Assembly (NCBI GenBank): GCA_016930075.1
Contig: JAFGHS010000075.1
Coordinates: 1-64,000 of the forward strand
Source of the DNA: Deltaproteobacteria bacterium
Lineage (GTDB): Bacteria > Desulfobacterota > Syntrophia > Syntrophales > JAFGHS01
Length of the DNA: 64,000 bases
Direction: 5' to 3'
A model generated the notes under the pieces. That model worked only from the letters and a program-made list of their open reading frames with translations, was not told the origin of the DNA and ran no database searches. Both the position numbers and the translations under genes were made by a program. This document shows, piece after piece, positions 38,590 to 45,881 of the stretch; positions within the stretch are counted from its first letter, which is position 1; each line of letters starts with the position of its first letter.

Positions 38590-38732
38590 GAAACCTTTGA
38601 AAAACGCCTCTTTTGTCATTGCGAGCGAAGCGAAGCAATCTCATCAGTATCCAATAATTGGAGAGATTGCCACGGCGCTTCACGCCTCGCAATGACAGGA
38701 AAAACGGAAATCTAAAGCGCTCATGAAGGTCT
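38590..38732. repeat. Foldback repeat element, copy A
   Basis: It begins with gaaacctttgaaaaacg (38590-38606) and contains the palindromic core gtcattgcgag ... ctcgcaatgac (38615-38695). An inner pair is built from gaagcaatctc and gagattgcc. It agrees with copy B (39193-39325) at all but a few positions from about 38593 to 38700. The right end is less clear; aaggtctta near 38726 may be the partner of the left end. Confidence 0.8.
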
Positions 38733-38757: not shown

Positions 38758-39120
38758 ATGAAAGAAAGAAAGATTATTTTTATTCTTGCCGTGATGATTT
38801 TACACTTATGTTTTTTGGGTTGTAGCGACGACAAGCCCTTGGTTCTCAAGGAAGGTGGTCCTTTAAAGACGAAAGCAAATACGGTTTTTAACGTACAGCC
38901 TGACGGAAGTGCGGCCATGTGGCTCATTGTGGAAAATGCGAGTGAACGAACACACGTCATGTTCGATAAAAAAGAAATAAGGCCGGTTTTTCATAATTCC
39001 CAAAAACTGACCTTAACTGTCCCAAGGGAACTTTATTCCAAACCAGGAAGGTACGAAATATATATTTTTAATCCTCAAAATGATAATAGATCGAACAGTT
39101 TGTTTTTTACGGTTGAATAA
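38758..39120 (+). CDS. Lipoprotein made of an IPT/TIG-like domain
   Basis: This 120-residue product has a lipoprotein signal: MKERKIIFILAVMILHLCFLGC, with the lipobox LGC and the acylated Cys at residue 22, followed by SDD. Asp at +3 and Ser at +2 leave the final location uncertain. The mature part, from about residue 26, matches the last 95 residues of the GT2 protein at 36073, with shared blocks such as GGPLKTKANTVFN and QPDGSAAMWLI. It ends at the same point. A ggagga site precedes the ATG. The gene sits between two near-identical foldback elements. No enzyme motif is present; a binding role in the envelope is likely. Confidence 0.8.
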   Translation: MKERKIIFILAVMILHLCFLGCSDDKPLVLKEGGPLKTKANTVFNVQPDGSAAMWLIVENASERTHVMFDKKEIRPVFHNSQKLTLTVPRELYSKPGRYEIYIFNPQNDNRSNSLFFTVE

Positions 39121-39192: not shown

Positions 39193-39325
39193 GAGACCTT
39201 TGAAAAACGCCTCTTTTGTCATTGCGAGCGAAGCGAAGCAATCTCATAAGTATCCAATAATTGGAGAGATTGCCACGGCGCTTCGTGCCTCGCAATGACG
39301 GAAAACAGAGAAGTTCTAAGGCCTC
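39193..39325. repeat. Foldback repeat element, copy B
   Basis: It runs from gagacctttgaaaaacg (39193-39209) to cttaaggcctc-type sequence at 39317-39325. The left end and the reverse complement of the right end (gaggccttagaact) form an imperfect inverted repeat. The core gtcattgcgag/ctcgcaatgac (39218-39298) is shared with copy A. It lies 48 bases before the large gene at 39373 and after the lipoprotein gene. Confidence 0.82.
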
Positions 39326-39372: not shown

Positions 39373-42336
39373 ATGAATAGAGTAAATGGCATGTGGCAAT
39401 ATTTTGATCACGAATTTGAGTATGAAGACGCGTATCGAGATTTTTATTCGCCGTGGGCGGGACATAAATATTTTTCATATGATTTAGTCCGAAACATAAG
39501 GCCGAAAATAATTGTCGAATTGGGTACGTACAGGGGCACGTCCTTTTTTTCATTCTGCCAGGCGGTAAAAGATGCGTGTCACGATGCAAATCTGTATGCC
39601 GTAGATACATGGCAGGGCGATGAACATGGAGGTTTTTATGATGAGGACGTTTATACCGACGTCATAAAGATAAAAGAAAAATACTACGCTGATTTAAAAA
39701 TAAATCTGCTGCGAAAGCGATTTGACGAAGCGGTTGATGAATTTGACAATCATTCGATTGATTTGTTGCATATCGACGGATTGCACACCTATGAGGCCGT
39801 AAAGCATGATTTTGAAAAATGGCTGCCGAAGGTCAAACCGGACGGCATCATTCTCTTGCATGATATTTATATAAACAAAGAGGATTTCGGGGTTCATCAA
39901 TTCTGGGAAGAACTTAAAGGCCAATACAAGACCGTCGAGTTTCATCATTCTTATGGGTTGGGGGTTTTGTTTAAAGACGGCACGCATTATCAATCATTCA
40001 TTGACAGCCAAAAAGAATGGCAGATCAGATATTCGTATATCGCGGAAGATAAGAAAAACGAGAAAATACATAAGTCTCTCACGAGCTCGGAGAGATTGTT
40101 GACCAAGCATGAGAGGCAGATTTCCGGTCTTCGCCAGATCATCTCGGAACAGGACGATAAGCTTGCCGTCCGGGACGGCAATATTGCCCGCCTAAACGAC
40201 GTCCTGTCGGAGCGGGACGGACAGATTGCCACCCTCAATGGGGCTGTGTCGGCGTGCGACAGACATATCGCCGTCCTCAATGAGGGCTTGTCGGAGCGGG
40301 ACGGCAATATTGCCCGCTTAAACGACGTCCTGTCGGAGCGCGACGGGGAGGTCGCCGCCCTCAACCGGACCGTGTCGGTGTGCGACGAACAGATCGCCGT
40401 TCTCAACGAGGCCCTGTCGGGACGGATTGCCGATCTCAACCGGGCCGCGACAGAGCGGGATGGCGCCCTCGCCTTGATCGACCTGATGAAGGGCAGCACC
40501 TCCTGGCGGCTGACTCGTCCCATGCGGTTTTTGGCCCGCCTGGTTCGATATGGTCTGATAGACGACGATCGCCGCAATCTATCACATCGGTTTCATTATC
40601 GATACCATCAACTGCCCCTGCCGGTTTCCGTCAAGAATTTTATCGGCATTTTCCGTCAAAAAAAGATGGCGGTGCAAATGGAAAAGGCCGGCGCCTTTGC
40701 AATCCATGCACGAAATGCCCTGCGTTATGTCGGCCGAAGGGACTTTGATGGTCTGAAAAAGCGCATCCATTTTTATCAAGCCGATCAATTCATACAGAAA
40801 TTGGCTGTCCTGGGTCCGCCCAAACGGTGGGGCGTCATTGCGACTCCGCATACGTTGTTTGTCGCCCATCTTGTTGCCTCGCGCCTCCGTGCGCATAACT
40901 TTGAGGTCGACATCATGACAAATCCGCCCGCCGGTTTTCCCCATGACATGTATGTCGTTATTTGTGCGCAAATGCTGGATGTTTTGCCGCCCGGCGAGAA
41001 GCGCATTGTCTATCAGATGGAGCAGTCCGTCAGTTCCCGCTGGTTCACGGACGCCTACATTAAAATACTGGAATGCTCGCTGGCCGTGTTGGAATACTCC
41101 CTGGTCAATGTGGCATTCATGGCCGGCAAGGGCGTGATGTATCCGCATGTCCACTACCTGCCGGTTGGGGCCGGCACGGGTTATATGGATCACCTTCCGC
41201 CGGTTGAAAAAACCTGTGATGTCCTGTTCTACGGAGATGCCAACAGTTCGCCGCGCCGCCGCGAGATGCTCAATGTCCTGCGGCGGCACTTCAATGTGCG
41301 TATGTGCAGTGAGATCTTCGACATGGACATGGTCAACGAGATTCGCCGCGCCCGCACGGTGATCAATCTGCACTATTATAAAAATGCGCTGCTCGAGATG
41401 CCCCGCATTCAGGAATGCCTGTCCCTCGGCGTTCCCGTCATAACCGAGACGGCGCAGGATCAGGCCGACTACCCGGATCTCACAGGGGCTGTGATTTTTT
41501 TCGAAGAGGGGAACGAACAGGCCATGATCGAAGCGGTGCGGAGGGCTTTACACCACCCTGTCGAACCTGAAACCATACGTCAAGCTGTTGCCGCCGGTGC
41601 CGGACGTTTTGCTTTCATGTTCGACCGTTTCCTCGTGGCCATGGGTTTCCTGCCGGCAAGCAAGCTTGCGGATGACGTTTTGCCGCTGCCGCAGGGCGCA
41701 TCGCACATTGTTCTTTCCATGCCGGAGACGATTGCGCGCCGCCGTCTTTTTGAGGCCAATTGTCCCCAATGCTTTGCCGTCTTCGATGGTATACGATTGC
41801 GTCCGGGCTGGGTGGGTTGCGGTCTGTCCTATGCGAAACTTGCGGGTTATGCGCTCAGCCAGGGCATGCACCGGCTGACGATTCTTGAAGACGATGCCCT
41901 GCTGCCTGAGGATTTCGAGGGAAAAATGCGCATTATCCACGCCTATCTTGATGCAAAAGAGGGTCAATGGGATGTCTTTGCAGGCCTCATTACGACCCTG
42001 CATTCTGAAGTGAAGGTCCTTGGCGCCGAAATGTTTCAAGGCATGCTTTTTGTCACCATCGATAAAATGACCGGCATGGTCTGCAATGTTTACAGTGAAA
42101 AAGTGCTGCGCATTCTTGCGTCATGGGATCCCGATCATCGCGATGATCAGACCAACACCATCGACAAATATTTGGAACGGCAGACCGACCTGCGTATTGT
42201 GGTGACTCTGCCGTTTTTGGCCGGACACAGGGAAGAGGTGCATTCCACGCTTTGGGGTTTCCAGAATACGCAGTACCGTGAACTGATAGCGGAGAGTGAA
42301 CGCACGCTGCAAGAGTCCGCCGGGGCATTTCTCTAA
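39373..42336 (+). CDS. Multi-enzyme fusion: methyltransferase, coiled-coil repeats, GT-B-like and GT25-like domains
   Basis: This 987-residue cytoplasmic protein has four parts. The N-terminal Methyltransf_24-like domain (about 1-210) has IVELGTYRGTSF, AVDTWQGD, LLHIDGLHTYEAV and LLHDIY. A coiled-coil zone (about 235-365) contains two 42-residue repeats at 267-350. A GT-B/CgeB-like domain (about 480-730) has DVLFYGDANSSPRR and RIQECLSLGVPVITE. The C-terminal GT25-like domain (about 755-970) has GCGLSYAKLAGYAL and the catalytic LTILEDDALLPEDF. A short motif, STSWRLTRPMR (about 374-384), sits after the repeats and also occurs in the protein at 23380. The start is ATG 39373 with only a weak ribosome-binding site. 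Confidence 0.8.
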   Translation: MNRVNGMWQYFDHEFEYEDAYRDFYSPWAGHKYFSYDLVRNIRPKIIVELGTYRGTSFFSFCQAVKDACHDANLYAVDTWQGDEHGGFYDEDVYTDVIKIKEKYYADLKINLLRKRFDEAVDEFDNHSIDLLHIDGLHTYEAVKHDFEKWLPKVKPDGIILLHDIYINKEDFGVHQFWEELKGQYKTVEFHHSYGLGVLFKDGTHYQSFIDSQKEWQIRYSYIAEDKKNEKIHKSLTSSERLLTKHERQISGLRQIISEQDDKLAVRDGNIARLNDVLSERDGQIATLNGAVSACDRHIAVLNEGLSERDGNIARLNDVLSERDGEVAALNRTVSVCDEQIAVLNEALSGRIADLNRAATERDGALALIDLMKGSTSWRLTRPMRFLARLVRYGLIDDDRRNLSHRFHYRYHQLPLPVSVKNFIGIFRQKKMAVQMEKAGAFAIHARNALRYVGRRDFDGLKKRIHFYQADQFIQKLAVLGPPKRWGVIATPHTLFVAHLVASRLRAHNFEVDIMTNPPAGFPHDMYVVICAQMLDVLPPGEKRIVYQMEQSVSSRWFTDAYIKILECSLAVLEYSLVNVAFMAGKGVMYPHVHYLPVGAGTGYMDHLPPVEKTCDVLFYGDANSSPRRREMLNVLRRHFNVRMCSEIFDMDMVNEIRRARTVINLHYYKNALLEMPRIQECLSLGVPVITETAQDQADYPDLTGAVIFFEEGNEQAMIEAVRRALHHPVEPETIRQAVAAGAGRFAFMFDRFLVAMGFLPASKLADDVLPLPQGASHIVLSMPETIARRRLFEANCPQCFAVFDGIRLRPGWVGCGLSYAKLAGYALSQGMHRLTILEDDALLPEDFEGKMRIIHAYLDAKEGQWDVFAGLITTLHSEVKVLGAEMFQGMLFVTIDKMTGMVCNVYSEKVLRILASWDPDHRDDQTNTIDKYLERQTDLRIVVTLPFLAGHREEVHSTLWGFQNTQYRELIAESERTLQESAGAFL
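40171..40422 (+). repeat. Two in-frame 126-bp tandem repeats in the fusion gene
   Basis: Units 40171-40296 and 40297-40422 each encode 42 residues made of three 14-residue steps, such as RDGNIARLNDVLSE and CDRHIAVLNEGLSE. The DNA of the first 42 bases of each unit is nearly identical, so the duplication is fairly recent. The heptad-like pattern of I, L and V predicts coiled coil. Confidence 0.85.
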
Positions 42337-42337
42337 C

Positions 42338-42354
42338 GAGACCTATGAAAAACG
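42338..42354 (+). repeat. Solo end of a foldback element
   Basis: gagacctatgaaaaacg differs at one base from the left end of copy B (39193-39209). No core or right end follows, so this looks like a remnant between two genes. Confidence 0.4.
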
Positions 42355-42408
42355 GACACTCAAAGCTCTCACAGCAGATGCTTTCTTCAAACCCCATCAG
42401 GTTTCATC

Positions 42409-44212: not shown

Positions 44213-45187
<975 letters not shown>

Positions 45188-45196
45188 ATGCCGACA

Positions 45197-45318
45197 TGAG
45201 ACCTTTGAATTTGTCATTTCGAGGAGCGGTAGTGACGAGAAATCTCAACGAATTCAGACCAGTAAGATTTCTCCCTAGGGTCGAAATGACAGGAAATGAG
45301 CATTATTCAAAGGTCTCA
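45197..45318. repeat. MITE-like foldback element with perfect 14-bp terminal inverted repeats
   Basis: The left end tgagacctttgaat (45197-45210) and right end attcaaaggtctca (45305-45318) are exact inverted repeats. Inside, gtcatttcga (45213-45222) pairs with tcgaaatgac and gagaaatct with agatttctc. The transcript would fold into one long hairpin. The right end stops two bases before the ATG of the sugar transferase gene. Confidence 0.88.
45309..45314 (+). promoter_or_regulatory. Ribosome-binding site supplied by the repeat end
   Basis: The only Shine-Dalgarno-like sequence before the ATG at 45321 is aaaggt (45309-45314), six bases upstream. It lies inside the right inverted repeat, so in RNA it can pair with accttt at 45201-45206 of the left repeat. 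Confidence 0.65.
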
Positions 45319-45320
45319 AT

Positions 45321-45881
45321 ATGAAGAGAATCTTTGATATTGCTGCGGCCCTTGCGGCTCTTTGCATATTTTTCGTCCCCATGCTTTTTTTGTCCCTCCT
45401 GATAAAATGTACATCCCAAGGTCCCGTCATTTACTGGTCTGACAGGATCGGCAGAAATAACGGGATGTTCAGAATGCTCAAATTCCGCACCATGCGCATC
45501 GATACGCCGGCTATGGCCACGCATCTTATGCGCAATCCTGATGACTATCTGACGCCCCTGGGGAAATTTCTGCGCAAGTCGAGTCTTGATGAACTGCCGC
45601 AGCTTTTCAATGTTCTTGCGGGGAATATGAGTCTGGTCGGCCCGCGCCCCGCCTTATACAACCAGGAAGATCTGATCGCGCTCAGGACGCAAAAAGGAAT
45701 CCATAAACTGCTTCCCGGCATTACCGGTTGGGCGCAAATCAATGGAAGAGACGAACTTTCGATTCCCGTCAAGGTGGCCCATGATGAATATTATCTCAAT
45801 CATCGGTCTTTCGGTTTTGATTTAATGATATTATGGAAAACGGTGATCAACGTCGTGAAAAAAGAAGGCGTAGCGCATTAA
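45321..45881 (+). CDS. Initiating sugar-phosphate transferase (monotopic PGT, PglC-like)
   Basis: This 186-residue bacterial sugar transferase moves a sugar-1-phosphate onto undecaprenyl phosphate, the first step of a lipid-linked glycan. It has one N-terminal reentrant hydrophobic helix (about 6-30), the [17 protein letters not shown] segment (about 42-58), the acidic catalytic pair within [13 protein letters not shown] (about 87-99) and the [14 protein letters not shown] motif (about 102-115). [15 protein letters not shown] is also typical. It is the small catalytic form, not the five-helix WbaP form. The ribosome-binding site lies inside a foldback repeat, so expression may be controlled by RNA structure. 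Confidence 0.9.

Follow-up and report, generated by a model that had tools for sequence, protein, structure and literature searches.

The locus examined here is the junction between two co-directional genes, one for a GDP-L-fucose-synthase-like epimerase and one for a sugar transferase, in a window that comprises the whole 64,000-nucleotide stretch analysed (Table 1). The transferase reading frame is intact and full length against PF02397, and because the profile alignment places residue 2 at position 1, the ATG at 45321 is a well-placed start. An element bounded by inverted repeats fills the space between the two genes. A preliminary description had given it 122 bp and perfect 14-bp repeats. 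The repeats are indeed perfect (TGAGACCTTTGAAT, 45197-45210, and ATTCAAAGGTCTCA, 45305-45318), and no second perfect 14-bp pair with spacing within 150 bp occurs in the entire window, but comparison with other copies showed that the outermost T/A pair belongs to the flanks and that the element proper spans 120 bp, ends in GAGACC...GGTCTC and carries 13-bp terminal inverted repeats (GAGACCTTTGAAT / ATTCAAAGGTCTC).

Table 1 Features at and near the epimerase/transferase junction
Feature	Coordinates	Strand	Basis
GDP-L-fucose-synthase-like NAD-dependent epimerase, upstream gene; stop 10 bp before the MITE	44216-45187	+	
MITE copy, 120 bp, IS5/ISNme1-type ends	45198-45317	.	family census and sister copy
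Left terminal inverted repeat, holds ACCTTT, complement of the Shine-Dalgarno (SD)-like site	45198-45210	+	
Inner palindromic core (GTCATTTCGA...TCGAAATGAC) and inner hairpin	45211-45292	+	fold
Right terminal inverted repeat	45305-45317	+	
SD-like AAAGG, donated by the MITE, 7 nt ahead of ATG 45321	45309-45313	+	sequence
Alternative start hairpin: MITE end 45308-45317 with codons 2-6 (45326-45328, 45330-45336), ATG in loop	45308-45336	+	
Sugar transferase, 186 aa, PF02397, small phosphoglycosyl transferase type	45321-45881	+	E 6.6e-60; TIGR03025 C-terminal domain match
Core-less pair of these terminal repeats, 33 bp in all, 1 bp past the stop of the 39373-42336 gene	42338-42370	.	
Second MITE, same terminal repeats, 133-bp subtype	39193-39325	.	
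Third MITE, same terminal repeats, 133-bp subtype, ends decayed	38590-38722	.	

The element is short and transposase-free and belongs to a multicopy family (69-75 copies in the fetched loci), and its 13-bp terminal repeats match an insertion sequence, with GAGACCTTTG common to ISNme1 and to the intact transposon described below; it is a non-autonomous IS5-type MITE, a kind already known. In the 3.8-Mb assembly GAGACCTTTG occurs 92 times, against 2 occurrences of the reversed control, and a DNA search of the genome with the window copy returned 46 matches. The census, which combined pattern and DNA searches with the regions fetched around the matches, gave 75 elements of 30-148 bp, among them 69 with three or fewer end mismatches (hereafter good copies). 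Exact 5-bp target duplications flank 34 of the 69, compared with 1.1% for shuffled flanks, and 19 of 39 elements in relatives of the same order. At the window copy, GACAT on one side and AATAT on the other agree at three of five positions, and agreement at three or more is expected by chance in about 16% of cases; the duplication there is either mutated or absent. An outward-facing AAAGG is present at the right end of 53 and at the left end of 52 of the 69 good copies.

Subtypes with common ends could be distinguished: a group of about 120-140 bp with the GTCATTTCGA core, to which the window copy belongs, a 133-bp type with a GTCATTGCGA core, and a 141-bp type ending in GAGACCTTTGCACAAC. The copy most similar to that in the window (C46:89096-89215; 97% identity) has the target duplication GTAAT; all four differences fall within the core and none in the ends. 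This sister is nested in an element of the 141-bp type that itself has the target duplication GTCTT, and since both 5-bp duplications are intact in this arrangement of one subtype inside another (C46:89019-89284, L083), the order of the two insertions can be read. Multiple copies, target duplications and a nested sister are marks of transposition, and the earlier proposal of a small mobile element is borne out by the family and by the sister elsewhere in the genome. The element had no match among plasmid records and none in Rfam.

Four family members lie within 7 kb of the glycan locus: the window copy, the two 133-bp MITEs and the 33-bp pair, which is either a minimal or a core-deleted element. 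The two 133-bp MITEs are 89% identical, share GTCATTGCGA cores and enclose a small gene (38758-39120). The neighbouring 987-residue gene (39373-42336) contains 42-nt repeats at 40171-40422, which encode 14-residue, ERDGNIARLNDVLS-like, coiled-coil-like units. The GTCATTTCGA core was also seen within other outer inverted repeats, CGTAAAAAGTC / GACTTTTTACG (L054 1501-1582 and L059 8-89), which suggests core exchange between unrelated end pairs, or nesting within them.

The sequence GAGACCTTTGCA is the end of ISNme1, of the IS5 family, and of the BrickBuilt MITE of Porphyromonas gingivalis (PMC4596501). A scan of genome records with the GAGACCTTTGCACAAC pattern turned up numerous short elements flanked by 5-bp duplications, in Syntrophaceae, Desulfobacterales and Chloroflexi among other groups. 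It also found an intact 1424-bp IS5-type element with perfect 12-bp matching ends in Syntrophaceae UBA4767 (L157:4499-5922), encoding a 378-residue transposase (NF033581, IS5 family; DUF772 and DDE_Tnp_1), and a second such element (L208) encoding a 320-residue relative. Searches of the draft assembly (192 contigs, 92% complete) with PF01609, NF033581 and the 378-residue protein detected no such transposase, and no autonomous parent was found among paired ends 0.7-3.5 kb apart in the genome; the copies are therefore taken to be non-autonomous, with a parent that has been lost or has escaped assembly. Of 80 Syntrophales genomes, 28 contain this family. The nearest described elements are IS5-derived MITEs, BrickBuilt of P. 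gingivalis and ATR of Neisseria, with ISPg1/ISPg9 and ISNme1 as proposed parents (PMC4596501). They share with the present family the same 10-12 bp GAGACCTTTGCA ends, a noncoding, multicopy nature and a parent inferred by ends, but here the core is the GTCATTTCGA palindrome without 23-nt tandem repeats, the target duplications are uniformly 5 bp and the hosts are Syntrophales.

We then considered what the element does to the leader of the transferase. Apart from the AAAGG of its right end, no SD-like site lies at a workable distance from the ATG, as judged against the general bacterial consensus. That the right repeat supplies this site, that the left repeat carries its complement and that inner segments also pair had all been noted in the preliminary description and held up here. 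The minimum-energy fold of 45180-45340, a calculation it had suggested, gave -47.0 kcal/mol (z = -3.6; none of 200 shuffles equally stable), and the MITE alone gave z = -4.7. The predicted stem comprises 13 + 12 bp interrupted by a 12-nt bulge. In the full leader the SD-like site is predicted to pair with the left arm with a probability of 0.996, to be unpaired with a probability of 0.001 and to cost 13.6 kcal/mol to open, in keeping with the masking hairpin first suspected, although such folding is thermodynamic only and ribosomes and protein S1 can open structured leaders. On a common measure (positions -15 to -7, with 140 nt upstream included) the transferase site costs 14.5 kcal/mol, the highest value compared, against 0.2-6.0 for other genes of the window.

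Removal of the left arm in silico left the site buried, now predicted to pair with codons 2-6 (opening cost about 9 kcal/mol), so that disturbing the MITE would not simply free it. The fold of 45300-45345, which contains this alternative hairpin, came to -14.5 kcal/mol (z -3.5). A ribosome on the epimerase stop, or on that of a mini-ORF at 45188-45199, was considered as an unmasker and set aside: with the bases it would cover removed, the SD-like site was still paired. Over all these deletions, that of the left arm included, the unpaired probability was 0.005-0.007 and the opening cost 8.4-9.1 kcal/mol.

The preliminary description had proposed a genome search for how often the repeat ends just before a start codon. 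No preference emerged: good copies ending 1-6 nt ahead of a plausible start numbered 2 of 69, against about 1.2 expected on rough gene prediction for those regions. The two are the window copy and C166:3133-3263, ahead of a radical SAM gene. Frames at the elements on C17, C15, C82 and C170, tried as further cases, run through the repeat or are without coding signal. Among 39 elements of relatives there was one clear case, at tsaC (threonylcarbamoyl-AMP synthase, TIGR00057) of Syntrophaceae UBA2251 (L283), and a few others were doubtful. On these numbers, placement next to a start is no more frequent than random intergenic insertion would make it. The tsaC junction reads AAAGGTCTC GAA ATG, with the MITE end 3 nt ahead of the ATG and an exact target duplication, the same configuration as at the window transferase. 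Predicted opening costs were 13.6 kcal/mol for the transferase, 9.3 for tsaC and 4.3 for the C166 gene, where the left arm has decayed.

With the flanks of the window copy joined, the transferase ATG falls 8 bp past the epimerase stop. In distant relatives, as read from the printed sequence, the start of a homologous transferase overlaps the stop of an epimerase-like upstream gene (TTATGA, L262) or of the preceding frame (GTGA, L264), and no MITE lies directly ahead of the homologues in L061, L261, L262 and L264. Taken with the 8-bp joined gap, these overlaps make it a fair inference that the insertion probably cost the transferase its translational coupling to the epimerase. We found this junction in no close relative, hence no empty site, and the coupling is read from distant homologues (transferases about 61% identical).

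We therefore favour, as the probable history of the site, that an IS5-type MITE inserted at the epimerase/transferase junction, immediately ahead of the transferase ATG, uncoupled the transferase and left it with a statically masked ribosome-binding site, as a side effect of insertion and with no responsive switch. The junction before insertion would have been tight and translationally coupled; the insertion would have split the genes, and the MITE end would have taken over from coupling as ribosome-binding site. This end forms half of the transposon's own inverted repeat, and transferase translation would for that reason be reduced constitutively, akin to the fold-back silencing of read-through transcripts in insertion sequences. 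Set against this account are the lack of a clean target duplication at the window copy, the unseen empty site with its reliance on distant homologues, and tsaC of UBA2251 behind the same MITE end. The tsaC gene is usually essential, so masking need not mean silence.

The preliminary description had gone further and seen in the element a translational switch. In such a domesticated device two exclusive hairpins, SD-like site with left arm or with codons 2-6, or the movement of a ribosome in the leader, would toggle the transferase. Two competing structures do form in silico, and the start hairpin is stronger than nearly all codon-permuted starts (0.2% as strong) and most synonymous re-codings (4.8% as strong). 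A mini-ORF, ATG CCG ACA TGA, has its stop within the left arm, which would let a ribosome there cover that arm. Both states, however, hide the SD-like site, and the pair of hairpins therefore yields no on state. The start hairpin is best read as a coincidence, because part of it follows from MKRIFD, the conserved start of the transferase family, whose TTTGA is by itself complementary to the TTCAAA of the MITE. The ends are unchanged relative to the C46 sister, and as the SD complementarity is a consequence of the terminal-repeat symmetry of the family, already present in that 97% identical copy, it is not an adaptation to this locus. With no alternative open state, ligand, conserved placement, enrichment before starts or Rfam match found, we regard a switch as highly improbable.

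Two other alternatives deserve more weight. The element might act on the stability of the message, with RNase III or RNase E cutting it in a co-transcript and so giving the messages on either side of it different fates. Its long stem and its position within a co-directional gene run suit this idea, as does the precedent of Correia and ERIC elements in the available text of PMC10969869; a consensus search found no promoter-like or terminator-like site in or beside the MITE, including the internal promoter that the preliminary description had named as evidence against masking. The 12-nt bulge breaks the stem, and we consider this reading unlikely, while noting that it is compatible with static masking and does not exclude it. 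Slightly better placed, though still rather unlikely in our judgement, is a neutral insertion, in which ribosomes open the hairpin, the transferase is translated well enough and the MITE has no measurable effect. The transferase frame is intact and full length, and tsaC and the C166 radical SAM gene, with their lower predicted costs, also look intact; against neutrality, the predicted cost at the transferase exceeds that of every window gene compared.

Static masking after insertion has a parallel in the fold-back inhibition of IS10 and IS50, in which a terminal inverted sequence in read-through RNA pairs over the SD site and blocks translation of the transposase. The likeness lies in the terminal inverted sequence that covers an SD site in read-through RNA; the difference is that theirs protects the element's own transposase, whereas the site masked at this locus is that of a downstream host gene. 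Correia/NEMIS elements of Neisseria and ERIC elements of Yersinia are likewise short, palindromic, mobile repeats that are co-transcribed and act through RNA structure, but their ends are unrelated, and they are reported to act by supplying promoters or IHF sites or through RNase III/E cleavage (PMC10969869, PMC2229807). For MITEs at large, one review names promoters, IHF sites, RNase cleavage, gene inactivation and sRNAs, with riboswitch-like action only conceivable (PMC10969869); SD donation is not among the effects listed in the available text of the two reviews (PMC10969869, PMC2229807). Our literature search found no direct precedent for SD donation by bacterial repeats.

A broader proposition, which we hold to be quite doubtful, is that the ends of the family are portable, self-masked ribosome-binding sites, each AAAGG being paired to the opposite end, so that landing before a start, as at the transferase, the C166 radical SAM gene and tsaC of UBA2251, would reset a gene to structure-limited translation that mutations in the far arm could raise; the decayed left arm at C166 may be an example. 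Stable hairpins made by MITEs over start sites are to be expected by default and make a regulatory story unnecessary, which corrects a likely over-reading of this hairpin as a switch. The locus offers a clear natural candidate for a host gene whose ribosome-binding site derives from a transposon end; a near-identical copy serves as control, and two other placements are comparable. Should the transferase truly be translated less, fold-back silencing, known for the genes of insertion sequences, would extend to host genes beside MITEs.
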